This document shows, piece after piece, positions 54 through 12,109 of a stretch of 36,807 bases of DNA; position 1 is the stretch's first letter, and each line of letters starts with the position of its first letter. The notes under the pieces were generated by a model, which searched no databases, was not told the origin of the DNA, and saw only the letters and a program-made list of their open reading frames with translations. This stretch comes from a virus. The position numbers were made by a program, and so were the translations under genes. The stretch is from the IMG/VR virus record IMGVR_UViG_3300047564_004503, positions 1-36,807 of that record. One strand, given 5' to 3'.

Positions 54-482
54 ATGGCAACCCGCTCTCGCATTGGTCTTGAACTCTCTGACGGTTCTGT
101 TCTCTCTGCCTATCATCACTGGGATGGTTATCCTGAATGGTTGGGTCGTATTCTGAACACTCATTACAACAGCAAAGATGCTGTTGCCGAACTGATTGAC
201 GGTGGTGATATGTCCTGCTGCTGGACTGATGAAGTTTGGGACGCAAAACGTGATGCGAATGATGATTGCACCGTGAAGAAGTACGGTCCGATGTATTACT
301 CTCAGCGTGGCGAAGATTGTCCTCCTCGCCTTGATAACAACATTGGTGAATACCTTTGTGATGGTGAAGAGTATGCTTATCTCTTCCGCAATGGTGAATG
401 GGTGTGCTACAATATGAATCAGTTTGAAGATGACAAACTGCCTGAAATCGTTGAAATCCCCAAAGGAGCACTTGCGGTGTGA
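54..482 (+). CDS. Conserved phage protein of unknown function (142 aa)
   Basis: The ATG at 54 is preferred over an in-frame GTG at 30 because the -10 element at 22-27 would put the transcript start beyond that GTG. The N-terminal part (SRIGLELSDGSVLSAYHHWDGYPE, about residues 4-27, shown here only as a landmark split: SRIGLELSDG then YHHWDGYP) resembles small proteins common in cyanophages. It is acidic and rich in Cys, Trp and Tyr, with no signal peptide or membrane segment. The TGA stop lies inside the operator palindrome of the next promoter. I know no function for it; it is probably an early host-interaction protein, by inference from location only. Confidence 0.85.
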   Translation: MATRSRIGLELSDGSVLSAYHHWDGYPEWLGRILNTHYNSKDAVAELIDGGDMSCCWTDEVWDAKRDANDDCTVKKYGPMYYSQRGEDCPPRLDNNIGEYLCDGEEYAYLFRNGEWVCYNMNQFEDDKLPEIVEIPKGALAV

Positions 483-536
483 CACTCTGACAACTGGCAC
501 ACAGGGCATCCCAGACCCCTCTGGATGCCCTATAAT
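478..536 (+). promoter_or_regulatory. Operator palindrome plus -10 (site A)
   Basis: TGTGACA (478-484), a 10-nt gap and TGGCACA (495-501) are followed after 29 nt by TATAAT (531-536). The gap before the -10 contains a perfect 8-bp inverted repeat, GGGCATCC/GGATGCCC. The upstream gene's TGA stop is inside TGTGACA. It drives the gene at 559. Confidence 0.75.
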
Positions 537-558
537 ACATTCATAAGCAACAAACCCG

Positions 559-1014
559 ATGACTTCTGCTTTTCTCACCAAGGACTTCAGTGACTTCTGT
601 GCTCAACGTGATGCACAGAATACCATCCAACTGAACGTTGTCAAGTATTGTTGGCAACTGTGTGAAGCACTGCGTCAGAACTACATTGATTATAGCATTC
701 GGTCTCACAAGCGTGGTGTAGAACTGGGTGAGAATGCCCACTATCATATTGCCTGCATTCAGGATTTGCGGAATGGTAAGTGTGATTATGATTTCACCTT
801 TGAGTCTGGTAAGAAGTATCACAAAATCATTATGAATGCGAATGGTTCTCGTTCGGTTCACGCCTTTATAGATAAGAAGACTGGTGAAGTTTATAAGTCT
901 GCCAGTTGGAAATCTCCTGCCAAAGGTGTTCGTTATGACCTTCGCATCATTGAGCAGCGTGAATGGTTGTTTGAGAATGCCGATTGGAGCGGTTCTTATC
1001 TTTACGCAAAATGA
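559..1014 (+). CDS. Conserved cyanophage protein of unknown function (151 aa)
   Basis: The ATG lies 28 nt after the start of the -10 at 531, behind an A/C-rich leader (AGCAACAAACCCG) without a Shine-Dalgarno sequence. The C-terminal half has a pattern I recognise from cyanophage small proteins: a lysine-rich stretch with NANGSRSVHAFIDKKTGEVY, then SWKSPAKGVRY, ending in WSGSYLYAK. This suggests a compact conserved domain, but I cannot name a function. The stop overlaps the start of the next gene (ATGA), so the two are probably translated together. Confidence 0.85.
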   Translation: MTSAFLTKDFSDFCAQRDAQNTIQLNVVKYCWQLCEALRQNYIDYSIRSHKRGVELGENAHYHIACIQDLRNGKCDYDFTFESGKKYHKIIMNANGSRSVHAFIDKKTGEVYKSASWKSPAKGVRYDLRIIEQREWLFENADWSGSYLYAK

Positions 1015-1421
1015 AAAAACTTTTTCTACTCTCTGCACTTCTGTTTGCTCCGATGCCTGTGATGGCACAGCAAGTGAATCAGTTTGGAGTCTGTACTCAA
1101 TATCAGGAAGTATATGTTCCCGGAGGTTATGATGAGTACGGGAATTACTATCCGGGTGGAGTACAGACTCAATCCTATAATGTTCCTTGCAATCAGGTTT
1201 CTGGTGGTAGTTGGAATGGTAATCAGGGGTACTATGGTGGAGGAAATGGTTATTATGGTCGGGCAACAAATCCTAACTGCAATCCAACCAGAACTCTTCT
1301 TGGTGCTGTTTTAGGTGGAGCAATCGGACGATCTATGACTAGCACTCCCAACAATCGTAATAATCGTGGTTGGGCAACTGCACTTGGAGCATCACTTGGA
1401 GGACTTGCATTCGTCTGCTGA
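1011..1421 (+). CDS. Secreted or membrane glycine-zipper protein (136 aa)
   Basis: The start codon overlaps the previous stop (ATGA at 1011). Residues 1-19 form a clear signal peptide: MKK, a Leu/Phe/Ala core and a VMA cleavage site before QQ. The middle is Gly/Tyr/Asn-rich with Cys residues at intervals. Residues about 100-136 (GAVLGGAIGRS, later ALGASLGGLAF) look like a glycine-zipper two-pass hairpin of the 17-kDa surface-antigen type. It probably inserts in the host envelope. A role in lysis, superinfection exclusion or surface change is possible but not shown by the sequence. Confidence 0.8.
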   Translation: MKKLFLLSALLFAPMPVMAQQVNQFGVCTQYQEVYVPGGYDEYGNYYPGGVQTQSYNVPCNQVSGGSWNGNQGYYGGGNGYYGRATNPNCNPTRTLLGAVLGGAIGRSMTSTPNNRNNRGWATALGASLGGLAFVC

Positions 1422-1425
1422 TTAT

Positions 1426-1558
1426 GACTGCTAAAGACAAACTTATTTTTGTTTCTTCGTTCATTTGGTTTTTGCACTGGGGTCAATGTCTTACGTCACG
1501 TATTCTGGATACGGTTATTCTAAACGCCTCTGTGAGGACGTTACCTTTTGGTTTCTGA
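1426..1558 (+). CDS. Possible small membrane peptide (44 aa), overlapping
   Basis: The ATG follows the preceding TGA by 4 nt, in the same TGATTATG stop-start arrangement found before the genes at 2584 and 9804. Residues 6-20 are hydrophobic and aromatic (KLIFVSSFIWFLHWG). Its last 72 nt overlap the metallopeptidase start in another frame, so the C-terminal half is suspect. It is either a real short membrane peptide or only the spacer before the next gene. Confidence 0.35.
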
Positions 1559-1962
1559 ATAAGTTTCTTCCACGCCATAAGATTGATGTGGAAATCCTAC
1601 ATCGTGGTCTGAAGCGTGAGGGTGCTTATGGATATTGTGATGTATCTGGAGAGACTCAACGCCCCCGTGAGTTCCTGATTGAACTTGACACTCATATGCC
1701 CAAAGAGTTGTATATACAAACTCTTTTGCACGAACTGACTCATCTGCGGCAATGGGTGGCAGGTTCGCTGCGGATGCGTTACGGGAAATTGTGTTATTCT
1801 AAAGAACCCGTTGAAAATTATGAGTATTGGCATCAACCACACGAAATAGAGGCACGGGAACAGGAAGAGACACTATATCTGGAGTACCTACAGGAGAAAG
1901 AGGGTGTGCCAGTCCAAGAGGTGGCACACTACTTCCCGAACCGCCTGATGCAGGCAGTATAA
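1486..1962 (+). CDS. SprT-like zinc metallopeptidase (158 aa)
   Basis: The sequence LLHELTHLRQW contains the zinc-binding HExxH motif at residues 82-86. The later HEIEAREQEE supplies a plausible third ligand. This arrangement is typical of the minigluzincin/SprT-like peptidases common in cyanophages. I chose ATG 1486 because the upstream in-frame start gives an unrelated N-terminus, whereas MSYVTYSGYGYSK fits the family. The substrate is unknown. The C-terminal codons contain a perfect copy of the operator palindrome (1905-1928), and its TAA stop overlaps the -10 of the next gene. Confidence 0.8.
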   Translation: MSYVTYSGYGYSKRLCEDVTFWFLNKFLPRHKIDVEILHRGLKREGAYGYCDVSGETQRPREFLIELDTHMPKELYIQTLLHELTHLRQWVAGSLRMRYGKLCYSKEPVENYEYWHQPHEIEAREQEETLYLEYLQEKEGVPVQEVAHYFPNRLMQAV

Positions 1963-1963
1963 T
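1905..1963 (+). promoter_or_regulatory. Operator palindrome plus -10 inside a coding sequence (site M)
   Basis: TGTGCCA (1905-1911), N10 and TGGCACA (1922-1928) lie entirely inside the metallopeptidase gene. With one flanking base on each side the palindrome is 8 bp per arm. After 29 nt comes TATAAT (1958-1963), which overlaps the TAA stop. It drives the operon starting at 1991. Confidence 0.7.
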
Positions 1964-1981
1964 TACAAGGTAATCAACGGA
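1958..1981 (+). repeat. Leader repeat, copy 1
   Basis: A 24-nt stretch starting TATAATTACAAGG and ending CAACGGA is identical to 3005-3028. It covers the -10 element and the start of the 5' leader of the gene at 1991. Confidence 0.8.
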
Positions 1982-1990
1982 ACCCCGACC

Positions 1991-2206
1991 GTGACTCTCC
2001 CCTCCTACAACGCCATTCAGTTTCGTTCTAAAGAGGAGCACCAGGCAGCACTGTATGATGCCTGCCTGCTGATTGTCAACACCTACAATCAATCCGAACT
2101 GCTTGATGGTTATTGCTTCGATCACGGTAAAACTGAAACTGTAACTTCATACGACTTTATGAAGTTTGCCCGCCGCATTCTCAACGACATCGCTGAAGGT
2201 AACTGA
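1991..2206 (+). CDS. Small protein of unknown function (71 aa)
   Basis: It is read from a GTG at 1991. The GTG start is supported by the duplicated leader: in the second copy the ATG at 3036 lies at nearly the same distance from the -10 (31 against 33 nt). The protein is an acidic, mostly helical-looking small protein (MTLPSYNAIQFRSK, then an Ala/Cys/Leu-rich stretch). No motif is recognised. It is the first gene of a tightly packed operon. Confidence 0.7.
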   Translation: MTLPSYNAIQFRSKEEHQAALYDACLLIVNTYNQSELLDGYCFDHGKTETVTSYDFMKFARRILNDIAEGN

Positions 2207-2207
2207 A

Positions 2208-2417
2208 ATGACTGAATTCTACGATTACGTTCTTTCTTTCTACGGCAAGGATGGCATCTATCCGATGGGTGCTACTCTGACTCTTGTTCGCAAGGCAACT
2301 CAGGACCTGATTCGCATTCTTAAAATCAAAGGTGAAGAGTTCTGTGGTGATAGTATTGATCGTGAACTTGTCCGTGACCTTCTGATTTCCAAGTACAATC
2401 TGCAACTCTCCAAATGA
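2208..2417 (+). CDS. Conserved cyanophage small protein (69 aa)
   Basis: The ATG is at 2208, 1 nt after the previous TGA. The pattern MTEFYDYVLSFYGKDGIYPMG followed by TLVRKAT and CGDSIDRELVRDLL (each a separate piece) is one I recognise from several cyanophage small proteins without an assigned function. It looks helical, with no membrane segment. The stop overlaps the next start. Confidence 0.8.
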   Translation: MTEFYDYVLSFYGKDGIYPMGATLTLVRKATQDLIRILKIKGEEFCGDSIDRELVRDLLISKYNLQLSK

Positions 2418-2581
2418 AGAACTATCGCATGGTGATTGAGTATTGGGATTTTGATGAGAATGGGAAACTATTTGAGGAAAGGTTTGTTCGCTCACGTTCA
2501 TCCTGTGGTAAGATTGCTGATGATTACCTAGCACAAGACCGCACTAATCTCATTCGCTCTGTAGAAGTCACTCCTCTCTGA
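2414..2581 (+). CDS. Small protein of unknown function (55 aa)
   Basis: The ATGA overlap with the previous gene sets the start. The predicted protein begins MKNYRMVIEYWDFDENGK and then has an Arg/Ser-rich centre. The short alternating beginning suggests a beta-hairpin. No motif is recognised. It is followed by TGATTATG, the stop-start junction used repeatedly in this region. Confidence 0.7.
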   Translation: MKNYRMVIEYWDFDENGKLFEERFVRSRSSCGKIADDYLAQDRTNLIRSVEVTPL

Positions 2582-2583
2582 TT

Positions 2584-2793
2584 ATGGCACTCTCTAACAA
2601 CACAATCATCAAACTGTCCGAGGCACTTTCTAAGGATGTTGCCGATTATATTATGGATGATGAGCGGTTCTTTGAACTGCTGGCAGAATTGATTCCTGAT
2701 GCAATTCATGCTAAACTTGGTGATGTGGATATGCAAGTATCCGCCGAACTGACGATGTGTTTGTCCGAACGTCTTATTCTAAAAGGTGTATGA
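2584..2793 (+). CDS. Small helical protein of unknown function (69 aa)
   Basis: The ATG lies 2 nt after the upstream TGA. It is an acidic all-helical protein (MALSNNTIIKLSEALSK at the N-terminus) with DERFFELLAELIPDAI in the middle. Similar small proteins occur in cyanophages, but I know no function. The stop overlaps the next start in an ATGA, suggesting translational coupling. Confidence 0.75.
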   Translation: MALSNNTIIKLSEALSKDVADYIMDDERFFELLAELIPDAIHAKLGDVDMQVSAELTMCLSERLILKGV

Positions 2794-3002
2794 ATAAAAA
2801 AGTAGAAATTAGTGTAAATCTAAATGCACATGAGTTAGGTATTCTCCTGTCTGCACTTCAAAAACTTGAAAATATTGACGAAATTTATCTTGCAAAAGAC
2901 TACGGAAGTGTTCCGGCACTGTATGATAAACTTCATGCCCTCTGGGAGCAGGTGGACACTTCGCAAACTGGTCTAAGGTACGATGTCGTGCCGTCTTTCT
3001 GA
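2790..3002 (+). CDS. Small protein of unknown function (70 aa)
   Basis: It begins in an ATGA overlap and reads MNKKVEISVNLNAHELG, then SALQKLENIDEIYL. It looks like a mixed beta/helical small domain. It is more AT-rich than its neighbours, so it may have a separate origin. It ends just before the second copy of the duplicated leader. Confidence 0.7.
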   Translation: MNKKVEISVNLNAHELGILLSALQKLENIDEIYLAKDYGSVPALYDKLHALWEQVDTSQTGLRYDVVPSF

Positions 3003-3004
3003 CC

Positions 3005-3028
3005 TATAATTACAAGGTAATCAACGGA
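3005..3028 (+). promoter_or_regulatory. -10 and leader repeat, copy 2
   Basis: TATAAT (3005-3010) begins a 24-nt stretch identical to 1958-1981. Unlike copy 1, no TGGCACA lies 28-30 nt upstream, so this promoter lacks the operator. Confidence 0.65.
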
Positions 3029-3035
3029 GCGCCCC

Positions 3036-3284
3036 ATGCAACTGTCTGCAATCTCTCAAATCGACGGCAAACCTTCGATGACTGTTGACTACTATCCCAT
3101 CAAAGACAGCACTCAGTTTATGTTCAAGGTGCTGAAGTTTCGTGGTGTTGACACCATGAGCACCAAGTGTATCACCATTCATGACTTTGAGAGTGAGATG
3201 GAAGAGCGTATTGGTATGGGTTGGGAAGTGACCAACTTTAACACCGAAGTCAAGAATGTCAATCCTATGAATGGTGCCTGCTGA
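3036..3284 (+). CDS. Small protein of unknown function (82 aa)
   Basis: The ATG is at 3036, 31 nt after the start of the -10 element. It has MQLSAISQIDGKPSM at the N-terminus and a beta-rich middle (FMFKVLKFRGVDTM). The C-terminal part has GMGWEVTNFNTEVKNV. No motif is recognised. The TGA overlaps the ATG of the next gene. Confidence 0.75.
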   Translation: MQLSAISQIDGKPSMTVDYYPIKDSTQFMFKVLKFRGVDTMSTKCITIHDFESEMEERIGMGWEVTNFNTEVKNVNPMNGAC

Positions 3285-3442
3285 TGAAATCTAAAGAAGT
3301 TACCTGCATCTTTTTTGCGTTCATTGCCATTCTGATGTGGAATGGTATTCTCATCAAACGTGACAAAGAGTTATTCAAGGCATATGATCAAGCATGTGCC
3401 GCACTTCCCCAACCTCATCCCGATTGCCGTTATTCCAAATGA
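3284..3442 (+). CDS. Small single-pass membrane protein (52 aa)
   Basis: TGATG overlap sets the start. Residues 6-24 (VTCIFFAFIAILMWNGILI) form one hydrophobic segment, flanked by MKSKE and KRDKE, with a Pro/Cys-containing tail. It may insert in the host cytoplasmic or thylakoid membrane. No family is recognised. Confidence 0.65.
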   Translation: MKSKEVTCIFFAFIAILMWNGILIKRDKELFKAYDQACAALPQPHPDCRYSK

Positions 3443-3582
3443 ATCAAGTTCCTTCTCTTCTCTGGTATCAGTATCTGAATGTTCTGAAGCGGGATGCTCC
3501 TGAACTGATTGATGAATATATTGAGAACACTGCCGCAAAATTAGAACTGACTGTTGATTACTTTGTTGCAGAGTTTCTATGA
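3439..3582 (+). CDS. Small protein of unknown function (47 aa)
   Basis: The start is in an ATGA overlap, and its own stop overlaps the next start in the same way. It is acidic and helical (LLWYQYLNVLKRDAPELIDEY). No motif is recognised. The unbroken coupling on both sides is the main support for it being translated. Confidence 0.65.
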   Translation: MNQVPSLLWYQYLNVLKRDAPELIDEYIENTAAKLELTVDYFVAEFL

Positions 3583-3761
3583 ACAATAACATTAAGATTC
3601 TACTTGCTCTGGAGCAATTGGAAAATGTGATGACACTGCTTGAGGGTAATCAGTGGGAAATGTTTGTCTCACATCATCTGATTCCAGTTCAGTATGAATT
3701 AAGACGCCAGTTGACAAATCTCTCACATTCAACTAAAATTAAGGAGTCCAAAACAAATTGA
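3579..3761 (+). CDS. Small helical protein of unknown function (60 aa)
   Basis: It starts in an ATGA overlap. Residues 5-25 form a Leu-rich amphipathic helix and the C-terminal tail is Lys/Ser-rich. AAGGAGT before its end is a good Shine-Dalgarno for the next gene at 3763. No function can be assigned. Confidence 0.65.
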   Translation: MNNNIKILLALEQLENVMTLLEGNQWEMFVSHHLIPVQYELRRQLTNLSHSTKIKESKTN

Positions 3762-3762
3762 A

Positions 3763-3996
3763 ATGAAAAATCTGTATATTGTCGATTATTGGGTTCCGTT
3801 TCCTTCATCTGAATATGGTGGAGTCATTAATGTTGTCGCAGAGAATGAAAATGAATGCCATGACATTTTGCTGAACTGGAGAGATGATTATAACTCTTCA
3901 CACGATAGTCGAATTATGGAAAATGTTCAAAAGTCTGTACGCTTCGCTCTCTCTGAAGATGCAGATTCACAAGTCGTCGATGCATTTATCACCTGA
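3763..3996 (+). CDS. Small protein of unknown function (77 aa)
   Basis: Preceded by AAGGAG about 18 nt upstream, inside the previous gene. It has MKNLYIVDYWVPFPSSEYGG, then VINVVAENENECHDILL: a beta strand, then a helix, as in small ferredoxin-like folds. No motif is recognised. The TGA overlaps the next ATG. Confidence 0.7.
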   Translation: MKNLYIVDYWVPFPSSEYGGVINVVAENENECHDILLNWRDDYNSSHDSRIMENVQKSVRFALSEDADSQVVDAFIT

Positions 3997-4160
3997 TGGA
4001 AAAACTTTATCGTATTGAAGGGTTCTCTACAACTGGATGGGGACCAATGGCAGAAACCGATTTCAAACTTACCAAAGAGCAAGCAAAGCAAAGATTAGAG
4101 CACTATCTTTCTGAAGGTATTTCACCTGATCGTCTTCGGGCAGTTCCTGATAATGGTTGA
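3996..4160 (+). CDS. Conserved cyanophage small protein (54 aa)
   Basis: It starts in a TGATG overlap. The beginning (KLYRIEGFSTTGW) and the end (KLTKEQAKQRLEHYL, then DRLRAVPDN) follow a pattern I recognise from many cyanophage small proteins of unknown function. Overlaps the next gene by 8 nt. Confidence 0.75.
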   Translation: MEKLYRIEGFSTTGWGPMAETDFKLTKEQAKQRLEHYLSEGISPDRLRAVPDNG

Positions 4161-4431
4161 CTTTCCACATTTGCCACCACAAGGTTATTCTTATGAGAGC
4201 GAATCCTTCAAGCGCAATGTCATTGCAATTTGGATTCGCAATCATCATGAGTTTAGTTACAATGGTGGCAATTCTGTTCGCAGCATCTGGGGATTCTACA
4301 ACTCAAAGACAAAAGAATACTTCGCTCCTGTCAACTCTAAGACAGTCGGCAAGTGTGTAAAGATTGAGAGCACGACTCCCTATACTGCGATGCAATTAAA
4401 ACAGACTCCTCTGACTGCGGCATTTTTATGA
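4153..4431 (+). CDS. Small protein of unknown function (92 aa)
   Basis: The ATG lies in the end of the previous gene. It is a mixed beta/helix protein with SFKRNVIAIWIRNHHEFSY and SVRSIWGFYNSKTKEYFAPV. The second part looks like a beta meander that could bind a ligand or nucleic acid. No family is recognised. The stop overlaps the next start (ATGA). Confidence 0.75.
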   Translation: MVDFPHLPPQGYSYESESFKRNVIAIWIRNHHEFSYNGGNSVRSIWGFYNSKTKEYFAPVNSKTVGKCVKIESTTPYTAMQLKQTPLTAAFL

Positions 4432-5045: not shown

Positions 5046-5795
5046 TCATCCATAAAACCAATAGAAACCCCTCCAACTATACTTACCTGGATTCTTCAGA
5101 CTCTTAAGAATCGGATTCTTATCGGCACTTTCAAAAGAACGTACTGCTTCTGAGATAGACTCACACCGAGGACCAATTAATCCTGTCTTTTTATCGACAC
5201 CAAATACCGATCTCTTTTTATTCTTCTCTTCTAATAACTGCCATTTATATCCGTATGCAGTTCTACCTGTACGGGCAGCAAGTAGAATGTTAGAATTGTT
5301 TTTCGGATTACCTGTCACTTGCTCTGCTGCTACTCTTGCAGATTCATAGTCTTTACATAATCCAGTTTCTAAATTCTTTCCACGTATCTTTAGTCCAAAG
5401 TGTTTACCATCTCCTCTTGTAGTTTCATTCCATGGTTGTAGGTGTGGTGATGGTGGTTTCTTTTTAACCTTTTTAGGAGGAGAGATAGGTTGTTCTTTGA
5501 TGACTGGTACAGGAGTGATAGGTTTCTCAATGAGAGTATTGTATTCAGGTTTATATTTCTCTATCCAGTAGTTTGTTCTGGATTCTATTTCATTCTCATG
5601 ACATTCATCAAGTTCTCTTATCATGAAGTTATGAGTACCATATTCACGAAATGCTTTATGTAAGGGTTCAGAAGACATTCTCTTTGAGCGTTCAATGTGA
5701 TTCACCCATTCCTTATTCATTGCAAGTGATGTGTTTCCGATGTATTTGTGCTCGTTTTGTTTGTTGAGAATAAGGTAGATGATTCCTCTTGACAT
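5046..5795 (-). CDS. GIY-YIG homing-type endonuclease with NUMOD-like repeats (249 aa)
   Basis: This is the only minus-strand gene. Residues 1-90 form a GIY-YIG nuclease domain: GIIYLILNK, then KYIGNTSL, the HIERSKR helix and the helix with the catalytic Glu (SRTNYWIEKYKPEYN). A Pro/Lys-rich linker (about 92-118) follows. The C-terminal part has two repeats of about 50 residues with the NUMOD1/IENR1 pattern (YESARVAAEQV...GYKWQLL and SISEAVRSF...WRGFYWFYG), which bind DNA in homing endonucleases. There is no intron sign, so it is probably free-standing, like T4 Seg proteins. Its start lies 2 nt from the iteron at 5797, so its transcription begins in the origin-like region. Confidence 0.85.
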   Translation of the reverse strand: MSRGIIYLILNKQNEHKYIGNTSLAMNKEWVNHIERSKRMSSEPLHKAFREYGTHNFMIRELDECHENEIESRTNYWIEKYKPEYNTLIEKPITPVPVIKEQPISPPKKVKKKPPSPHLQPWNETTRGDGKHFGLKIRGKNLETGLCKDYESARVAAEQVTGNPKNNSNILLAARTGRTAYGYKWQLLEEKNKKRSVFGVDKKTGLIGPRCESISEAVRSFESADKNPILKSLKNPGKYSWRGFYWFYG

Positions 5796-6096: not shown

Positions 6097-6314
6097 CTCG
6101 TCGAGACATATCACAAGGTCTTATATCAGTATATCTTAACATTCTCGACGAGATTGCATATATACTCTTATGAAACTCGTCGAGATACGCCTTGCAACTC
6201 GTCGAGATTCATGCTATAATAACGAAGTATTCAAAGTTCTCGACGAGTTTTATGTACGACGATTACGATCTCGACTATACATACGCCAACGATTATGGAC
6301 AAGATCTCGACGAG
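6097..6314. repeat. Cluster of six CTCGWCGAG palindromes
   Basis: The 9-mer CTCGTCGAG (or its complement form CTCGACGAG) is at 6097-6105, 6144-6152, 6176-6184, 6198-6206, 6239-6247 and 6306-6314. The first two extend to an 11-bp TCTCG-W-CGAGA. Spacings are irregular. Sites 3, 4 and 5 surround the promoter at 6192-6220 and site 6 lies in the coding sequence, as expected for a multi-site operator. Confidence 0.8.
6192..6220 (+). promoter_or_regulatory. Promoter of the Asp/Tyr-rich gene
   Basis: TTGCAA (6192-6197), a 17-nt spacer and TATAAT (6215-6220). A CTCGTCGAG palindrome fills the start of the spacer, another lies just upstream of the -35, and a third lies about 20 nt after the -10. This layout suggests repression by a protein bound to the palindrome. 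Confidence 0.65.
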
Positions 6315-6401
6315 TATTACACACATGATTTAGATCTCGATGAAGATTATGCACGAGATGGGCAAGATTATCAAGATCTTGCATATCGCCACTATGCATG
6401 A
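6252..6401 (+). CDS. Extremely acidic Asp/Tyr-rich protein (49 aa), possible DNA mimic
   Basis: The ATG at 6252 is 32 nt after the -10, and the upstream in-frame part has a different composition. Of 49 residues, 14 are Asp, 2 Glu and 11 Tyr, with only 2 Arg and no Lys. A short unit (YDLDYTY, QDLDEYY, HDLDLDEDY) repeats three times, and its coding DNA uses GATCTCGA, so it carries the operator-like motif itself. No family is recognised. The charge suggests a DNA mimic or protein inhibitor; this is inference. It could also be a metal-binding or disordered peptide. Confidence 0.65.
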   Translation: MYDDYDLDYTYANDYGQDLDEYYTHDLDLDEDYARDGQDYQDLAYRHYA

Positions 6402-6407
6402 TATAAT
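6379..6407 (+). promoter_or_regulatory. Promoter of the gene at 6434
   Basis: TTGCAT (6379-6384), a 17-nt spacer and TATAAT (6402-6407), overlapping the end of the upstream gene. No operator palindrome is present. Confidence 0.5.
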
Positions 6408-6433
6408 ACTCACACACATCACACGAGATTCTT

Positions 6434-6589
6434 ATGCCTGTCACTAACAAGCGTCTAGTACGTGTAACACTAGATATTGAATGCTATGATGATCTAGATC
6501 TAGAAGAACTAGATTGGAATGATATCTTAGGTCTAGAAGGGGATGAATCTGTGCATTCTAGCGTCAAAGAATTGGGGGACATCTATTAA
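6434..6589 (+). CDS. Small acidic protein of unknown function (51 aa)
   Basis: The ATG lies 27 nt after the -10. It begins MPVTNKRLVRVTLDIECYDD and has repeated LDLEELDW-type acidic units. Six of its eight leucines use the codon CTA, and the tetranucleotide CTAG occurs seven times in 156 nt, unlike its neighbours. No Shine-Dalgarno is seen. No function can be assigned. Confidence 0.65.
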   Translation: MPVTNKRLVRVTLDIECYDDLDLEELDWNDILGLEGDESVHSSVKELGDIY

Positions 6590-6649
6590 TGTGACAGTTT
6601 GAGAAGTGGCACAAGACCCCTTGCGAGCTCATGCGCTAGGGGTTATAGT
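6590..6649 (+). promoter_or_regulatory. Operator palindrome plus -10 (site B)
   Basis: TGTGACA (6590-6596), N10, TGGCACA (6607-6613), then 30 nt to TATAGT (6644-6649). The gap holds a CCCCT/AGGGG hairpin. It drives the gene at 6703. Confidence 0.7.
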
Positions 6650-6702: not shown

Positions 6703-6960
6703 ATGAAAACCGCTAATTCTTTCTACTGGTCCTTCGTTAATACTCTGATTCTGAATGTTGCTACCATCGCCGCAATCGTTGTGGGAATTGTGCAATTTTT
6801 GGTTCGTGCTTATAAAGAAAACAACGGCGCACAAAAGACTCGCAAGGTGATTCAAACCGTGCTGCAGTTCGTTGATACTATTGTGGGCAAATTGCTGCCG
6901 CTGGTTGATACCGATGTGCCAGTTGTGAAAGTGGCACAGAAAACTATCAAACGCCGCTGA
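6703..6960 (+). CDS. Small membrane protein (85 aa)
   Basis: It begins MKTANSFYWSFVN and has one clear hydrophobic segment (about residues 12-35, with a VATIAAIVVGIVQFLV core). The C-terminal part is basic and helical, and the last residues are KTIKRR. It is probably anchored in a host membrane. The codons for residues about 72-79 contain a perfect copy of the operator palindrome (6915-6938), which serves the next gene. Confidence 0.7.
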   Translation: MKTANSFYWSFVNTLILNVATIAAIVVGIVQFLVRAYKENNGAQKTRKVIQTVLQFVDTIVGKLLPLVDTDVPVVKVAQKTIKRR

Positions 6961-6973
6961 TTGCTGGTATATT
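6915..6973 (+). promoter_or_regulatory. Operator palindrome plus -10 inside a coding sequence (site N)
   Basis: TGTGCCA (6915-6921), N10, TGGCACA (6932-6938), fully within the preceding gene, then 29 nt to TATATT (6968-6973). It drives the gene at 6995. Confidence 0.65.
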
Positions 6974-6994
6974 ACATACATCGCTGAGGAATTC

Positions 6995-7207
6995 GTGATT
7001 TTCGCCATCTCTCAAATTAATGGTTGCACTTATACTCTGGACCCTGACAATGACCGGGTTCTGATGTATGCTCCGCTGCTGTCTGATGGTTCATACGAAA
7101 CGACCTATTCTGCCTATGATTGGGTGGAATGGGACCGTCTAGATGATGATGTTCTAGAGGAGGCAGACCGTATTCACAAACTGTTGCTCGCTGATGTGAC
7201 AGTCTAG
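6995..7207 (+). CDS. Small acidic protein of unknown function (70 aa)
   Basis: Read from a GTG, supported by GAGGA 6 nt upstream. The N-terminus (MIFAISQINGCTYTLDPDND) is a beta hairpin and the C-terminus is an acidic helix (WDRLDDDVLEEADRIHKLLL). The TAG stop falls inside the next operator palindrome. No family is recognised. Confidence 0.65.
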   Translation: MIFAISQINGCTYTLDPDNDRVLMYAPLLSDGSYETTYSAYDWVEWDRLDDDVLEEADRIHKLLLADVTV

Positions 7208-7252
7208 GAACTGGCACAAAGGGGGTTGATTAATCCCCCAATCCCTGATAAA
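7195..7252 (+). promoter_or_regulatory. Operator palindrome plus -10 (site C)
   Basis: TGTGACA (7195-7201), N10, TGGCACA (7212-7218), then 28 nt to GATAAA (7247-7252). The gap has a hairpin of GGGGGTT with AATCCCC. The stop of the upstream gene is between the two half-sites. It drives the gene at 7278. Confidence 0.65.
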
Positions 7253-7277
7253 TTACATTCGTTCCTGAGAAATTTCA

Positions 7278-7499
7278 ATGTTCAACTGGATTCTTGACAA
7301 TCTGCCCTTGTTCGTTAATGTTAACTGCTCTGGTAGTAAATCTCTTGATGCATTGATTCTCTCTCCTGTGCATGGAGTTGCAATTGCCAAGATGACTTCG
7401 GGTGCCGTTTATAGCGTACCTGTGAGTCGGTTTGATATGCTGAAAGTTCGCCAATATGATAATGCTGGCGAATGGTTGGATGCTCACCGTATGATGTGA
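7278..7499 (+). CDS. Small protein of unknown function (73 aa)
   Basis: It begins MFNWILDNLPLFVNVNCSG and then has a beta-rich stretch (ILSPVHGVAIAKMTSGAVYSV). CTGAGAAA about 10 nt upstream is a poor Shine-Dalgarno. The TGA lies within the next operator. No motif is recognised. Confidence 0.7.
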   Translation: MFNWILDNLPLFVNVNCSGSKSLDALILSPVHGVAIAKMTSGAVYSVPVSRFDMLKVRQYDNAGEWLDAHRMM

Positions 7500-7552
7500 C
7501 AGTCACCAAACTGGCACACACCCCCTAGACTTCCGCCTCAATCCCTGATAAT
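7495..7552 (+). promoter_or_regulatory. Operator palindrome plus -10 (site D)
   Basis: TGTGACA (7495-7501), N10, TGGCACA (7512-7518), then 28 nt to GATAAT (7547-7552). No hairpin is evident in the gap. It shares CAATCCCTGATAA with site C. It drives the ArdA-like gene. Confidence 0.7.
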
Positions 7553-7580
7553 CTACATTCATACCAAACAAATCCACCAA

Positions 7581-7997
7581 ATGTCCGTCACTCTGACCGT
7601 GAACTACAAAGAAATCTTCGCTGCTGAAACTGTAGAGAAGATCGATCAATTGCTGGAAGACAACTATTTCATTGATGATATCCTGGAGTTCATCGACAAC
7701 AACAATGAAGATGATTTCGTTGCATTCTATGAAGAGTACGTGACTCACGGTGAGGACCTTGGTTATGATGTTGTGGATGCATTTGTAGGTTATCACGGCA
7801 TCTCCTATGTTGAGCACGTTCGTGATGCCTACCGTGGTGCTTATGATTCTGGTGCTGACTTTGCCGAAGAATTCTATAATGATGTCTACGGCGATGTTCC
7901 TTCCTTTCTTGTCGTTGATTGGGAAGCAACTTGGGAGCAAAGTATGAAGTATGATTTCGATTTCGTGGATGGTTACATCTTTGACAGCAACTTCTGA
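7581..7997 (+). CDS. ardA: ArdA-like antirestriction protein (138 aa)
   Basis: The C-terminal two thirds match the ArdA pattern in order: DAFVGYHG, then a DAYRGAYDSGADFAEEF block, then a VDWEATWEQ block and finally DFDFVDGYIF. ArdA proteins are acidic dimers that mimic DNA and block type I restriction-modification enzymes. At 138 residues it is shorter than the usual 160-170, mainly at the N-terminus. It is strongly acidic. The ATG lies behind the leader CATACCAAACAAATCC. The -35 element of the downstream RNA promoter lies in its last codons. It probably protects incoming phage DNA from the host. Confidence 0.75.
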   Translation: MSVTLTVNYKEIFAAETVEKIDQLLEDNYFIDDILEFIDNNNEDDFVAFYEEYVTHGEDLGYDVVDAFVGYHGISYVEHVRDAYRGAYDSGADFAEEFYNDVYGDVPSFLVVDWEATWEQSMKYDFDFVDGYIFDSNF

Positions 7998-8010
7998 AGT
8001 ATGATATAAT
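7981..8010 (+). promoter_or_regulatory. Consensus sigma70 promoter
   Basis: TTGACA (7981-7986), an 18-nt spacer and TATAAT (8005-8010): both hexamers are perfect. It starts inside the ArdA-like gene. This differs from the operator-type promoters around it and no gene follows. Confidence 0.75.
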
Positions 8011-8016
8011 ACAGAG

Positions 8017-8126
8017 AGGAATGAGTTTGCCTCTCTCAACGTCAAAAGTTACTCCTGTGGTGATATCATAACAGATAAAGTGGGTAGTGAGGTTATAAGG
8101 AAAGGGGTGGTGCCCTTTCCTTTTTT
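8017..8126 (+). ncRNA. Candidate small noncoding RNA (about 110 nt)
   Basis: A transcript from the promoter at 7981-8010 would start near 8017 and end at the terminator at 8126. It contains no convincing gene; the longest frame starting at ATG 8021 has 16 codons. An inverted repeat AGAGAGG/CCTCTCT (8013-8036) would fall at its 5' end, although the predicted start could cut the first arm. A regulatory RNA is the simplest reading; a tiny peptide gene is the alternative. Confidence 0.5.
8097..8126 (+). terminator. Intrinsic terminator
   Basis: A perfect 10-bp stem AAGGAAAGGG/CCCTTTCCTT with a 6-nt loop (GTGGTG), followed by a T run. It is the clearest intrinsic terminator in the window. Confidence 0.9.
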
Positions 8127-8249
8127 CTTATATTTTATAACTATTTCAAAGCTGCCCCGGTGGCGATGGTTGGCGTCATCAGGGCTACCCCGCCCCTCTC
8201 TCCCTTGTCCCCGTATTATAAAGCCGCAGAGAGGCACCGGAAGGGGTCC
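8127..8249. other. Noncoding GC-rich segment
   Basis: I see no gene in this stretch between the terminator and site E. It contains short inverted repeats and a TATTAT at 8214-8219, without an operator. It might be a decayed gene. Confidence 0.5.
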
Positions 8250-8309
8250 TGTGCCACTTCGTGAACTGGCACCCACCCGCTTGCGGTTCGCCGGAATCCA
8301 TGCAATACT
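8250..8309 (+). promoter_or_regulatory. Operator palindrome plus -10 (site E)
   Basis: TGTGCCA (8250-8256), N10, TGGCACC (8267-8273), then 30 nt to AATACT (8304-8309). The gap contains CCCGCTTGCGGTTC, identical to that of site G. It drives the nucleotidyltransferase gene, whose ATG lies 6 nt after the -10, giving little or no leader. Confidence 0.65.
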
Positions 8310-8315
8310 AACAGT

Positions 8316-9233
8316 ATGAAAAACATTCACCTCGACCACCCCGAAGATACCATCCTGACCGGTGATCTTTCCGTTCTGGATTGGTTCATTGAACCTGGCA
8401 CTTTGAGTGTCAAGATTGATGGTGCTCCTGCAATCGTATGGGGAATTGATCCTGCTAATGGTGAGTTCTTTGTAGGAACCAAGGCAGTATTCAACAAGAA
8501 AAAGATTCGTATCGCTCACAATCATGAGGAGATTGATCTCTTCTATCAGGGCGAAGTTGCACAGATTCTGCACTGCTGCTTTGATCATCTGCCCCGTTTG
8601 GAGACAATCTATCAGGCAGACTTCATCGGTTTCGGTGGATTGAATGAGTACCAATCCAACCTGATTACGTATCAGTTCGGTGACATCGTAACTCAGAACA
8701 TTATCATCGCTCCTCACACTTGCTATTATGCTGAGAGCGATCTTCGTGATGCTGAGGCATTCCCTGACCGTAGCATCTGGACTGATACTGAAACGGTCAA
8801 GTTTGTCAAACCCGAAGGATACATTCTGCACGATCCTTGGACTACCAGCAACGGAACCGTGTGCTTTGATGATGTAGAGGACGTGGTAAAGTTTGCCCGC
8901 CAAATGGCAACTGCTGTACAGTTTGTGACTGCAAAGAAAGCAGAAGAGATTAAGCGACAAATCAATGCTCGCATTCGTGAGAATTACCGTGTGCATGAGG
9001 ATGATTTTGAGTGTGATCCTAACCTGATTCGTTTGTGGGCACTGGTGAAATCTATTAAGGATGATTGCCTGCATCTGTGCCGCAATGATGGTCCTGCAGC
9101 ATACATCAACGGCAACCGTATTGATGCTGAGGGTTACGTGCTCTCCAATCGGTTTGGTATGTTCAAACTGGTGAATCGTGAGGTATTCTCTTATGCAAAC
9201 TTCAACAGCGGACGCTTTCAGTGTGCCAGCTGA
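8316..9233 (+). CDS. Ligase-like nucleotidyltransferase (305 aa)
   Basis: SVKIDGAPAIVWG at residues 31-43 fits the KxDG motif I of the covalent nucleotidyltransferase (RNA/DNA ligase and capping enzyme) superfamily, with Lys33 as the presumed AMP-accepting residue. FVGTKAVFNKK (52-62) resembles motif Ia, ADFIGFGG (101-108) motif III, EGYV (272-275) motif IV, and FKLVNR (283-288) is a degenerate motif V. It could be an RNA ligase that repairs host-cut RNA, or an uncharacterised relative found in cyanophages. The weak motif V makes activity uncertain. The -10 to ATG distance is very short. Confidence 0.65.
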   Translation: MKNIHLDHPEDTILTGDLSVLDWFIEPGTLSVKIDGAPAIVWGIDPANGEFFVGTKAVFNKKKIRIAHNHEEIDLFYQGEVAQILHCCFDHLPRLETIYQADFIGFGGLNEYQSNLITYQFGDIVTQNIIIAPHTCYYAESDLRDAEAFPDRSIWTDTETVKFVKPEGYILHDPWTTSNGTVCFDDVEDVVKFARQMATAVQFVTAKKAEEIKRQINARIRENYRVHEDDFECDPNLIRLWALVKSIKDDCLHLCRNDGPAAYINGNRIDAEGYVLSNRFGMFKLVNREVFSYANFNSGRFQCAS

Positions 9234-9281
9234 GGGAGTGGCACACGGTGCCCGCCGGGGTGCCCGCTGACCCCCTATAAT
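9222..9281 (+). promoter_or_regulatory. Operator palindrome plus -10 (site F)
   Basis: TGTGCCA (9222-9228), N10, TGGCACA (9239-9245); flanking bases extend the arms to 8 bp. After 30 nt comes TATAAT (9276-9281). The upstream TGA is between the half-sites. The leader is TTCATACCAAACAAACC. Confidence 0.75.
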
Positions 9282-9307
9282 TGATTCATACCAAACAAAC
9301 CAAACAA

Positions 9308-9469
9308 ATGCGTTTCCAAGTCTACGTTCCTTCCGCCCCTTACGAGTCTGAGAGCACCTCTGATGAGGGCCGGGCGTGGGATCTCTGCCTGGATCTCTCT
9401 GAGGAGTTTGGATACGCTGAGGTCCGCCGGGATGGCATGATCCTGGGTTCCTACCAGGACGGTCACTGA
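9308..9469 (+). CDS. Small acidic protein of unknown function (53 aa)
   Basis: ATG 9308 follows the -10 by 26 nt behind an A/C-rich leader without a Shine-Dalgarno sequence. It begins MRFQVYVPSAPYESE and has an acidic middle (DEGRAWDLCLDLSEEFGY). It may be a beta-alpha-beta mini-domain. No function is recognised. Confidence 0.65.
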   Translation: MRFQVYVPSAPYESESTSDEGRAWDLCLDLSEEFGYAEVRRDGMILGSYQDGH

Positions 9470-9471
9470 AC

Positions 9472-9514
9472 TGTCACACGGGGGGTTGAGATGCCCCCCA
9501 TCCCGTGCCATACT
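9472..9514 (+). promoter_or_regulatory. Operator half-site plus -10 (site L)
   Basis: TGTCACA (9472-9478) is a variant right half-site with no clear left half. After 30 nt comes CATACT (9509-9514). The gap contains a GGGGGG/CCCCCC hairpin. It drives the operon starting at 9540. Confidence 0.5.
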
Positions 9515-9539
9515 ACATCTGTTGAGAGGAAATCCCACA

Positions 9540-9662
9540 ATGTTTGACGAACTCTGGTCTGAGATTCAAGATGCTCCCGGTGAGATTTTCGACATTCCGG
9601 AGATGCAGGACAGCAAAGACTTCAACCTTGATGAATACCTGAAAGGTGATTATGATTACTGA
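9540..9662 (+). CDS. Very acidic 40-residue protein
   Basis: The ATG follows AGAGGA about 10 nt upstream, a rare Shine-Dalgarno in this region. Of 40 residues 13 are Asp or Glu, with only two Lys. No motif is recognised. Its end overlaps the next start (9652). Confidence 0.6.
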   Translation: MFDELWSEIQDAPGEIFDIPEMQDSKDFNLDEYLKGDYDY

Positions 9663-9801
9663 AACTCTCTACCCTGAACTCAAAGAACCCACTATGTCAT
9701 TCGCTGAAATCGTTGCCCTGTTAGTGTCACTCTCCGAAGATGAGTTGGAGACACTGGACGAAGACAAGTTTGCCGCTGCCCTTATCACTCTTCACCACTG
9801 A
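9652..9801 (+). CDS. Small acidic helical protein (49 aa)
   Basis: It starts at ATG 9652 within the end of the previous gene; an in-frame ATG at 9694 is the alternative. The protein has a FAEIVALLVSLSEDELETL helix and a DEDKFAAAL helix. The pattern is familiar from cyanophage small proteins. TGATTATG joins it to the next gene. Confidence 0.6.
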   Translation: MITETLYPELKEPTMSFAEIVALLVSLSEDELETLDEDKFAAALITLHH

Positions 9802-9803
9802 TT

Positions 9804-10073
9804 ATGTACCGCACACTTTCTGAACTTCGTGACTCTATCAATTCAATGATTGAGAGTCAAGGTGAGAACGCTCCCTGTGCTGCGTTTGTATTCACTCAAC
9901 ACGATGTTGTTGAGTTTAATGAGGAAACGAATCAGGATGATTATTTTCCCACTCTTTTCACTCAAGATGTGCTCGCTGATGTAGGCGGTTCTTCCTACAT
10001 TTACGAAGAAGTTGGTCAAATGATTGATGATTCAATTCGTGACCGTAAGAAACTGCCCCTCTACGCTAACTGA
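9804..10073 (+). CDS. Small protein of unknown function (89 aa)
   Basis: The ATG lies 2 nt after the upstream TGA. It begins MYRTLSELRDSINSMIESQG and continues with CAAFVFTQHDVV and SYIYEEVGQMIDDSI. This helix-beta-helix layout is without a known family. It is co-transcribed from site L. Confidence 0.75.
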   Translation: MYRTLSELRDSINSMIESQGENAPCAAFVFTQHDVVEFNEETNQDDYFPTLFTQDVLADVGGSSYIYEEVGQMIDDSIRDRKKLPLYAN

Positions 10074-10075
10074 AA

Positions 10076-10279
10076 ATGACTAACAACATTAAATCCTGGA
10101 CTGACAATCGTAGCACTCTGATTGAGAGTTACGCCGAACAGATTATGGATGGAATGGACATGAAAACGATGGAGCAGTTTGTATTTGATACATTGGTAGA
10201 TAATCTCAATAGCTATACTGAAGAGGAACTGATTGCAGAGATTACCGAATACAATCCCGAACTGCTGGAGGGCGTGTGA
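10076..10279 (+). CDS. Small acidic helical protein (67 aa)
   Basis: The ATG is 2 nt after the previous stop. The sequence (SWTDNRSTLIESYAEQIMDG, then YTEEELIAEITEYNPELL) is familiar from cyanophages and marine Synechococcus genomes, with no assigned function. It is acidic and all-helical. The TGA stop is inside the next operator. Confidence 0.75.
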   Translation: MTNNIKSWTDNRSTLIESYAEQIMDGMDMKTMEQFVFDTLVDNLNSYTEEELIAEITEYNPELLEGV

Positions 10280-10334
10280 CAGTTGAATAGGTGGCACAAC
10301 CCCGCTTGCGGTTCCCCCCATTTGCTGCAATACT
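10275..10334 (+). promoter_or_regulatory. Operator palindrome plus -10 (site G)
   Basis: TGTGACA (10275-10281), N10, TGGCACA (10292-10298), then 30 nt to AATACT (10329-10334). The whole operator including the N10 is identical to site J, while the gap matches site E over 14 nt. Confidence 0.7.
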
Positions 10335-10362
10335 AAGGCATACCAAACGAAACGGAAATCAA

Positions 10363-10602
10363 ATGACCGACACGCCCCGTGCCTACGCTGTCATCGGCGG
10401 ATGGGATTATGAAGGCGAAGATTTCAACTCTCTGCGCCTGTTCGATTATCACTCCGCTGCCGTGGCATACGCTAAGGACCTGACCGAAGAACAGGGTTAC
10501 GATTACTCTAAGTGTGAGTTTCGTTTGATTGAACAAATCCCCGCACTTTCTGAGATTCAAGAGAAAGCCCGCCGTGCTGAGCGTCTGGCGGTGCTGCCCT
10601 GA
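10363..10602 (+). CDS. Small protein of unknown function (79 aa)
   Basis: ATG 10363 lies behind the leader CATACCAAACGAAACGG. It begins MTDTPRAYAVIGGWDYEGED and then has LRLFDYHSAAVAYAKDL. A beta strand, helix, beta strand order suggests a small open-faced sandwich domain. No function is recognised. Confidence 0.75.
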   Translation: MTDTPRAYAVIGGWDYEGEDFNSLRLFDYHSAAVAYAKDLTEEQGYDYSKCEFRLIEQIPALSEIQEKARRAERLAVLP

Positions 10603-10615
10603 CCAATCGGCAAGG

Positions 10616-10658
10616 TGGCACACGGCACCCCCGCTGGTGCCCTTCCACCCCTTATAAT
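10616..10658 (+). promoter_or_regulatory. Operator half-site plus -10 (site H)
   Basis: TGGCACA (10616-10622), then 30 nt to TATAAT (10653-10658). The left half-site is degenerate (CTGACCA). The gap has a perfect GGCACC/GGTGCC hairpin. The leader is TTCATACCAAACAAACC. Confidence 0.6.
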
Positions 10659-10680
10659 TGATTCATACCAAACAAACCAA

Positions 10681-10953
10681 ATGAAAGACCTCACCCTCAG
10701 CACCTACAACGGTTGGGCAACTTACGAAACCTGGAATGCTGCCCTGTGGATTCAGAATGATGATTTCCTCTACAATACTGCTAAGGCATGTGTAGAGTTT
10801 TGTGGAGAGAATGAGACCCCTTGGGACAAGTTTGTGCGCTGCATGATGGAGGGTCAGATTGGGCGTATGCTTGGCAAAACTGGTGACGGTGTTGCATGGG
10901 ACAGCGTAGCAATCGATGCCGATGAGATGAACGAAATGCTGGCCGATTTCTAA
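10681..10953 (+). CDS. Conserved phage protein with YNGWATYETWN motif (90 aa)
   Basis: ATG 10681 lies behind the CATACCAAACAAACCAAA leader. STYNGWATYETWNAALWIQND near the N-terminus (shown as YNGW...YETWN...ALWI) is a pattern I recognise from many small phage proteins of unknown function. The rest is helical with an acidic end. Its function is not known to me. Confidence 0.75.
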   Translation: MKDLTLSTYNGWATYETWNAALWIQNDDFLYNTAKACVEFCGENETPWDKFVRCMMEGQIGRMLGKTGDGVAWDSVAIDADEMNEMLADF

Positions 10954-10955
10954 AC

Positions 10956-10997
10956 TGGCACAAAGGACCTGGGCACGTCCCTAAACTGCCCTATAAT
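10956..10997 (+). promoter_or_regulatory. Operator half-site plus -10 (site I)
   Basis: TGGCACA (10956-10962), then 29 nt to TATAAT (10992-10997). No left half-site is present. The leader is again CATACCAAACAAACCAAA. Confidence 0.6.
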
Positions 10998-11023
10998 TCA
11001 CTCATACCAAACAAACCAAACAA

Positions 11024-11200
11024 ATGCGCTACAACTGCAAAGCACTCTACACTCTGGAAGAAATTGCTGAACAGTGCCGGAATGCAATCATGAAGGCAGA
11101 GCAACCTAAAGTTGATGACAATCTGTACGATGAGATTCTCACCTTCTACCGTTGGGAGGATGACATCCTGCGCCTGATTCCCGAACCTGTCGCTGCCTGA
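11024..11200 (+). CDS. Small helical protein of unknown function (58 aa)
   Basis: It starts at ATG 11024 at the end of an A/C-rich leader. It is helical (LYTLEEIAEQCRNAIMKAE, then DEILTFYRWEDDILRL) and acidic. No motif is recognised. It shares its promoter with the gene at 11223. Confidence 0.65.
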   Translation: MRYNCKALYTLEEIAEQCRNAIMKAEQPKVDDNLYDEILTFYRWEDDILRLIPEPVAA

Positions 11201-11222
11201 TTCACACTTTACTAATACAATC

Positions 11223-11372
11223 ATGACCCGTAACGTTCTTGTTTCACTTCTGCGCCAAGGTTCTAATGGTGAACAAATTCTCCAAATTCTTGAGAGTATT
11301 TCTTCTGGCGTGGGTGATAATTCAAGCAGCGCCAATGCTGGCGAACCTACCATCAATCCAATCGAATTCTGA
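11223..11372 (+). CDS. Conserved small protein (49 aa)
   Basis: ATG 11223 lies 22 nt after the previous stop. The sequence LVSLLRQGSNGEQILQILES followed by a Ser/Ala/Asn-rich linker and EPTINPIEF is a pattern I recognise from small proteins of cyanophages and marine Synechococcus. It has one helix and a short C-terminal motif. Its function is unknown. Confidence 0.7.
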   Translation: MTRNVLVSLLRQGSNGEQILQILESISSGVGDNSSSANAGEPTINPIEF

Positions 11373-11378
11373 TTATAG

Positions 11379-11438
11379 TGTGACAGTTGAATAGGTGGCA
11401 CAGCGGAGGGTTCCCCCCTCCCCTTTGCCCCTTATAAT
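11379..11438 (+). promoter_or_regulatory. Operator palindrome plus -10 (site J)
   Basis: TGTGACA (11379-11385), N10, TGGCACA (11396-11402), then 30 nt to TATAAT (11433-11438). The gap has a GGAGGG/CCCTCC hairpin. The operator is identical to that of site G. Confidence 0.75.
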
Positions 11439-11460
11439 TGATTCATCAGCAACCCACCCA

Positions 11461-12054
11461 ATGCCCGCCAAACTCTCCGTCTCCGAAGTTCACGGCAAAC
11501 TCACCACCTTCAACTTCACTAACGTTGCCAAACCCGGTCGCAATAAGGGTGAGCGTGGGCAACTGATTGAAGTCGCCCTGGGCATTCCTAACACCTCCAA
11601 CCTTACCGACCTGGTAGACGGCGAACTGAAAACTTTCACTCAGGGTGAATCAATCGCTGTAACCCAGTTGAAGCATTGCCTCTCTGAAATCATCGAAGAC
11701 GGTGTTAACTTCGCTGATAGTAAGGTCGGAGAAAAACTCAATCAAACCATCTACGTTGGTTTCACCCGCACCAATCAATACCTGGGTTCGGTTGTACTGA
11801 ATGCCAAATCTGATCCTGTTCACTATCAGCAACTGGAGCAGGATTACAACTTCATTTGTGATGCCATCCGCCATGCATTTGCTGCTGGTGAACAACTCAA
11901 AACCATCACCGGTCCTAACAAACTCCTGCAGATTCGGACCAAAGCATCTAAAACTAACGGCGCTTATGTTCCTCTGACCTTTGCAGGTTGCACTCTGAAG
12001 GATAAGGGAATGGCGTTCTATCTGTGCGGCAAATTCGGTAAGGAAGTCCTGTGA
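11461..12054 (+). CDS. PD-(D/E)XK nuclease, MutH/Sau3AI/MvaI-like (197 aa)
   Basis: ERGQLIEVALGIP (31-43) with Glu37, then TDLVDGELKTF (49-59) with Asp50 or Asp53 and Glu55-x-Lys57, match the catalytic core E...D...ExK of the MutH/Sau3AI and MvaI/BcnI endonuclease group. The length fits a single nuclease domain. These enzymes nick or cut short DNA sites. In a phage it could act in host DNA breakdown, repair or site-specific nicking. No methyltransferase is seen next to it, which argues against a classic restriction-modification pair. It is the best expressed candidate by its full promoter (site J). Confidence 0.6.
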   Translation: MPAKLSVSEVHGKLTTFNFTNVAKPGRNKGERGQLIEVALGIPNTSNLTDLVDGELKTFTQGESIAVTQLKHCLSEIIEDGVNFADSKVGEKLNQTIYVGFTRTNQYLGSVVLNAKSDPVHYQQLEQDYNFICDAIRHAFAAGEQLKTITGPNKLLQIRTKASKTNGAYVPLTFAGCTLKDKGMAFYLCGKFGKEVL

Positions 12055-12109
12055 CGGTCGGGGCACTGGCACACTCCCGGAGGGAGCGGCACCGCTGACC
12101 CTGTAGAAT
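12050..12109 (+). promoter_or_regulatory. Operator palindrome plus -10 (site K)
   Basis: TGTGACG (12050-12056), N10, TGGCACA (12067-12073), then 30 nt to TAGAAT (12104-12109). The gap has two hairpins, CTCCC/GGGAG and AGCGG/CCGCT. The upstream TGA is inside the left half-site. Confidence 0.65.

Follow-up and report, generated by a model that had tools for sequence, protein, structure and literature searches.

Operator-promoter units in the small-gene region of a T4-like cyanophage share the operator and spacing of host yfr2 promoters and probably use a host regulator

The 36,807-base IMG/VR virus record IMGVR_UViG_3300047564_004503, which was analysed over its whole length (the window), is a fragment of a T4-like cyanophage with Synechococcus phage S-SRM01 as its nearest listed relative, and contains 14 copies of a putative operator, each followed at a nearly fixed distance by a -10 hexamer. 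An earlier reading made without database searches (the sequence-only reading) had placed 14 such sites in the window, and all were found at the same coordinates: 11 inverted repeats of 24 bp and three half-sites (TGTCACA at 9472, TGGCACA at 10616 and 10956). Nine of the eleven copies that it gave as TGTGMCA-N10-TGGCACA are exact, and those at 8250 (which ends in CACC) and 12050 (TGTGACG) carry one mismatch. As it had also claimed, the best -10-like hexamer lies 28–30 nucleotides (nt) downstream at 14/14 sites, with the correction that the exact TATAAT at 8250 is on the minus strand. The hexamer is an exact TATAAT at six sites (478, 1905, 9222, 10616, 10956 and 11379) and has one mismatch at four (6590, 6915, 7495 and 12050), with plus-strand hexamers having two mismatches at the other four (7195, 8250, 9472 and 10275). 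All full copies are within the small-gene region, and the structural-gene part of the window (12.2–36.8 kb) has none.

Along the plus strand, the repeat at 478–501 has its TATAAT 29 nt away at 531–536 and precedes an open reading frame (ORF) at 559–1014 (DUF7717), and the repeat at 1905–1928 lies within the 3′ end of ORF 1465–1962, with TATAAT at 1958–1963 ahead of ORF 1991–2206. The repeat at 6590–6613 is followed by TATAGT (6644–6649) and ORF 6703–6960, within which lies the next repeat (6915–6938), with TATATT at 6968–6973 and ORF 6995–7207 downstream. At 7195–7218 the repeat is followed by a spacer hairpin (GGGGGttgattaatCCCCC), a weak -10 (TAAATT, 7249–7254) and ORF 7278–7499, and at 7495–7518 by GATAAT (7547–7552) and ORF 7581–7997. 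The repeat at 9222–9245 overlaps the stop codon of ORF 8316–9233 (DUF6267) and has TATAAT at 9276–9281, and that at 10275–10298, with a weak -10 (AATACT, 10329–10334), is the same inverted repeat as the one at 11379–11402, where a hairpin (GGAGGG...CCCTCC) and TATAAT (11433–11438) precede an ORF ending at 12054. The one-mismatch repeat at 12050–12073 overlaps the upstream stop codon and is followed by TAGAAT (12104–12109) and ORF 12138–12314. The three half-sites, also on the plus strand, are the conserved ends of degenerate 24-mers: 9472–9478 (24-mer 9455–9478) with a GGGGGG...CCCCCC spacer hairpin and a weak -10 (CATACT, 9509–9514), 10616–10622 (10599–10622) with a GGCACC...GGTGCC hairpin, TATAAT at 10653–10658 and a DUF7249 ORF at 10681–10953, and 10956–10962 (10939–10962) with TATAAT at 10992–10997 and ORF 11024–11200. 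Several of the repeats thus sit inside the upstream gene or over its stop codon, so that their position is set by the -10 of the next gene and not by the gene boundary.

The repeat at 8250–8273 probably serves a minus-strand or divergent promoter with its main direction to the left, because an exact TATAAT is located 29 nt away on the minus strand (8215–8220); its plus-strand side has a weak -10 (AATACT, 8304–8309) before ORF 8316–9233. A minus-strand promoter here would read about 100 nt of apparently non-coding DNA (8092–8250) towards a GC-rich inverted repeat near 8100, and this transcript is possibly a small RNA. The predicted fold of 8092–8250 is only slightly better than that of shuffles (z -1.96), and Rfam gave no match in the window, including this candidate.

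The units were well above chance expectation. Allowing up to three mismatches, 24 strand-matches were counted in the window with 4.7 expected and a maximum of 18 in 100 dinucleotide shuffles, and the combination of inverted repeat and -10, scored with a matrix derived from other contigs only, occurred 11 times in the window and never in shuffles. Across 497 non-redundant promoters the consensus was TGTGMCASTY-N4-RASTGKCACA, followed after 28–31 nt (mostly 29–30) by TATAAT, which excludes the NtcA (GTA-N8-TAC) and CRP boxes, as the sequence-only reading had also held. These 497 promoters were chosen for having a -10, so its conservation is partly built in; this does not apply to the spacing in 120 IMG/VR loci picked by the repeat alone, with no -10 requirement. 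There, exact TATAAT was found at 28, 29, 30 and 31 nt in 5, 43, 20 and 1 cases, respectively, over a background of about one per position, and 63 of 86 cases were at 29–30 nt. The same profile was seen in a pool of 1155 sites (27, 218, 107 and 21 cases), which includes one scan that demanded a spacing of 26–31 nt.

This arrangement places the operator centre near -54 and leaves no sigma70-type -35 (TTGACA, 16–18 bp from the -10): conservation stays at or below about 0.14 bits throughout the -35 hexamer region, and a 5/6-or-better match is present in only 13–16% of promoters with 29–30 nt spacing, which bears out the earlier statement that no -35 is evident. The secondary spacing peak at 40 nt is partly due to TATA-rich leader sequence, with a small real class remaining that does have a -35 (5/6 or better in 5/11) and whose operator is shifted upstream by 11 nt, roughly one turn of the helix. 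The family had been called near-identical, which is true of the repeat and not of the spacer. Spacer stems of at least 6 bp were found in 16.7% of units vs 3.0% of shuffled spacers, a few of them with a T-rich tail, and 8/14 units in the window have a spacer stem of 5 bp or more.

The repeat turned up in many contigs when IMG/VR was scanned for the pattern; gp23, the capsid protein of T4-type phages, was present in 15 of 50 sampled records, and many of the others were short fragments. The search of related cyanophages proposed with the original observation recovered 76 strict half-site plus -10 units across 17/19 T4-like cyanophage records, where a reversed control pattern gave two, and none in T4, KVP40, RB49, P-SSP7, Syn5 or Ma-LMM01. 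With a matrix from the IMG/VR sites we counted 14 units in S-PM2, 20 in P-SSM2, 22 in S-SRM01 and 7 in S-SKS1, with at most 0.3 in shuffled genomes. Unsupervised counting of k-mers upstream of TATAAT also returned the half-site at a gap of about 29 nt in P-SSM2 and S-SRM01 and AACTG in S-PM2, and, in several cyanophages, separated promoters with TTGAC at -35 from a second class having the half-site at the ~29 nt gap; in T4 it returned GTTTA instead, from that phage's own GTTTAC-type -35. T4-like cyanophages carry from one to about twenty units each, mostly ahead of small genes of the variable regions, and the sites cluster in the small-gene regions of P-SSM2, S-PM2 and S-SRM01. The expectation that the motif would precede small genes only held for most sites, with a few located before other genes (peptidase, cobS). 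The annotated peptidase gene is preceded by a unit in both Syn9 and P-SSM2; in Syn9 the -10 (127544–127549) nearly abuts the annotated start (127552), and hence this start may be misplaced or the transcript may be leaderless. Head-to-tail arrays of the repeat at a spacing of approximately 57–63 bp were observed in IMGVR_UViG_3300031784_003461 (L075, 195–2811) and IMGVR_UViG_3300008113_001711 (G015), with TTGACA after the repeat in each unit and up to 34 repeats in 21 kb; they may be tandem promoters or a decoy array.

The same operator is found in front of a host RNA gene. The strict repeat had nine matches in 257 Gb of genome sequence from bacteria and archaea, where about seven were expected by our estimate, four of them in cyanobacteria; apart from the cyanobacterial matches the repeat is at chance level, which rejects a host-wide regulon motif, and five of the nine (L135, L136, L138, L139 and L142) look like chance matches. 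Three (L137, L140 and L141) were located just upstream of the Cyano-1 RNA (RF01701), at the phage spacing, and a fourth genome has a one-mismatch site ahead of Cyano-1 that is followed after about 30 nt by a -10 of the TATAAT type. Cyano-1 is identified as the Yfr2 family by the sequence features described in PMC2662882. We subsequently took Cyano-1 genes from across the phylum and read their upstream DNA, and in 35 of 50 non-redundant yfr2 promoters the site that fitted the phage matrix best was 44–52 nt upstream of the GGA conserved in the RNA, with about five expected and at most 10 in shuffles. Many of these matches score weakly, and the consistency lies in their position. The element is thus shared by phages and host yfr2 promoters. 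No Cyano-1 RNA was found in 28 phage records, which together with the lack of an Rfam match in the window rejects a phage-borne Yfr2; for the same reason the phage unit would work like a yfr2 promoter without being a yfr2 gene.

Yfr2 promoters with the CGRE1 element, which in MED4 is confined to these promoters, are bound by PMM1637, a regulator of the GntR family that all cyanobacteria share and through which Yfr2 is induced under high light and in late nitrogen starvation (PMC6778093). The Yfr2 regulator is named PlmA in a review, which also describes its reduction by thioredoxin (PMC7344720). PlmA is universal in and exclusive to cyanobacteria, forms dimers, of which a cell contains about 200, and comes into contact with the PII-PipX complex (PMC5083789), and its regulon has been described as undefined (PMC6243067). 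A search of 25 phage records for GntR domains gave none, which rejects a phage-encoded GntR factor; given the absence of both this domain and Cyano-1 RNA, the phages seem to have the promoter but neither the gene that it serves in the host nor the regulator. The factor that the sequence-only reading had left as phage- or host-encoded is hereby narrowed towards the host, as the same operator and spacing before host yfr2 mean that a host factor must read the operator there.

We consider it probable that the unit is a yfr2-type promoter lacking a -35, read by the host RNA polymerase together with host PlmA. The operator is most likely bound by PlmA (PMM1637 in Prochlorococcus), which from its position near -54 would bring this polymerase to the -10 without a -35, and the virus would in this way probably switch on its own genes by borrowing a regulator that is already in the cell. 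We infer the binding of PlmA, activation as opposed to repression, and the early timing. The small class with 40 nt spacing and a -35, displaced by one helical turn, fits an activator acting from one face of the DNA. The 29 nt spacer often holds a GC-rich hairpin that could terminate the upstream transcript, and it is able to hold such hairpins because no -35 is needed there. A wider scenario is put forward tentatively: T4-like cyanophages may have taken over the PlmA-dependent yfr2 promoter as a multi-copy class, which would couple phage transcription to PII-PipX and thioredoxin signals, and the multiplying phage DNA may bind so many of the ~200 PlmA dimers that yfr2 is deprived of its regulator.

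The element, an inverted repeat close to where the upstream gene ends, could instead act as a hairpin in the mRNA of that gene. This reading is ruled out by the covariation test: positions 8 and 17 are Watson-Crick partners in 29% of sites vs 43% expected if they were independent and favour G/G and C/C (Fisher p 8e-13), positions 5 and 20 vary independently of each other, and no T-tract directly follows the repeat. At position 8 the two half-sites of the IMG/VR promoter set tend to differ, with TGTGMCAG on one side and TGTGMCAC on the other; this tendency is strongly non-random, in a site that is otherwise palindromic. The shared DNA-binding factor proposed in the sequence-only reading is well supported by the conserved halves without RNA-stem covariation and by the fixed spacing to the -10. 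That the units are mainly mobile cassettes at gene boundaries, resembling the promoter-early stem-loop (PeSL) cassettes described for T4-type phages (cited in PMC4503421), with recombination between hyperplastic regions responsible for the repetition and no regulator of their own for the repeat, is consistent with the excess of spacer stems and with the position of units between small variable genes. We regard it as very unlikely, since the 24-bp repeat is kept between distant phages whose spacers differ and is present in host yfr2 promoters too; recombination may additionally disperse the units.

Several observations do weigh against PlmA as the activator of these units. Yfr2 promoters of Prochlorococcus have an intact distal and a decayed proximal half; in phages, by contrast, the proximal half is stronger than the distal. 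Marine picocyanobacterial yfr2 promoters (such as L461, L466, L468 and L482) have, in addition, the same half-sites abutted in reverse order as AACTGKCACA-(T)GTGMCAGTT, a pair that is essentially absent from phages and may be the published CGRE1. Furthermore, the strict unit was not found in S-SCSM2R or S-SM2, Syn9 has about two sites, barely above background, and PlmA could repress rather than activate. A phage DNA-binding protein outside the GntR family that binds the repeat and controls the genes, with the yfr2 likeness stemming from ancestral operator capture or mimicry, would account for the rarity of the strict repeat in chromosomes (nine in 257 Gb) and its abundance in cyanophages, as well as for the differing copy number in phages of the same host strain (S-PM2 vs S-SCSM2R). 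It would leave the operator at the same spacing before host yfr2 genes to be explained; no common phage DNA-binding gene was identified, GntR being excluded in the 25 phage records, and genes used before phage proteins build up would need a ready-made factor, and we consider this unlikely. If CGRE1 is the abutted opposite-order pair and not the 24-bp repeat, a host factor other than PlmA might recognise the yfr2 operator and hence the phage copies. Both arrangements are built from the same half-site (AACTGKCACA), and PlmA/PMM1637 is the sole regulator reported at yfr2 promoters in the literature surveyed (PMC6778093, PMC7344720), which makes this a slightly more improbable reading still. The bound protein may also be a repressor, silencing the promoters in some host states or after replication, with the -10 working alone. 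GntR proteins are often repressors, and a repeat beside the core promoter allows either sign. The -35 region without a conserved element, as in activator-dependent promoters, argues for activation, as do the 40 nt class and the description of Yfr2 induction as PMM1637-mediated (PMC6778093), so that we rate repression as quite improbable.

Elsewhere in the window, a single open frame of 4512 codons (17756–31294) was found downstream of gp6; the S-SRM01 counterpart of this frame is annotated as a baseplate wedge initiator. Region 6100–6520 contains many palindromic words of the CTCGACGAG type and related ones (ATCTCGACGAG, CTAGATCTAG), with similar words in S-SRM01 near 88.2 kb. A GIY-YIG-like protein (weak Pfam match) is encoded on the minus strand at 5046–5795 amid plus-strand small genes, and is a probable homing endonuclease.

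Our partial coverage of the literature contained no paper linking cyanophage promoters to Yfr2 or PlmA. Phage promoters that use a host regulator are of a known kind, and the new part is a specific, testable host counterpart. If the proposal is right, the shared operator names a host activator for phage genes, provides hundreds of candidate PlmA sites, and opens a route for the carbon/nitrogen and redox state of the host into infection. It would link two gaps, in cyanophage early transcription, the start of which has been called unclear for T4-like cyanophages (PMC2984593), and in the PlmA regulon, and is open to experiment with phage-host pairs already available and with purified protein.

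Among known systems, the PeSL cassettes pair a promoter of early type with a stem-loop and lie between small genes in hyperplastic regions, and the units described here resemble them and may overlap with them; here, however, the 24-bp operator replaces the -35 and the stem is located between operator and -10. The units may also overlap with a novel early-gene regulatory element that Doron et al. (2016) reportedly described in Syn9 as conserved among T4-like cyanophages, with Syn9 having only the two or so sites mentioned above. NtcA box promoters similarly place the site of a host regulator upstream of phage genes, and differ in sequence, half-site spacing and position. T4 itself uses its own GTTTAC-type -35 and has no such operator. 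At T4 middle promoters an activator site likewise replaces the -35, with the MotA site near -30, whereas the operator centre here is near -54. Cyanomyoviruses are without motA and asiA (PMC2984593). The closest counterpart is the yfr2 promoter, which in several lineages has the same 24-bp operator, equally far from the -10 and the RNA 5′ end; marine hosts add the abutted opposite-order pair that phages are without, and phages place the operator, in one to about twenty copies and without the small RNA, before small protein genes.

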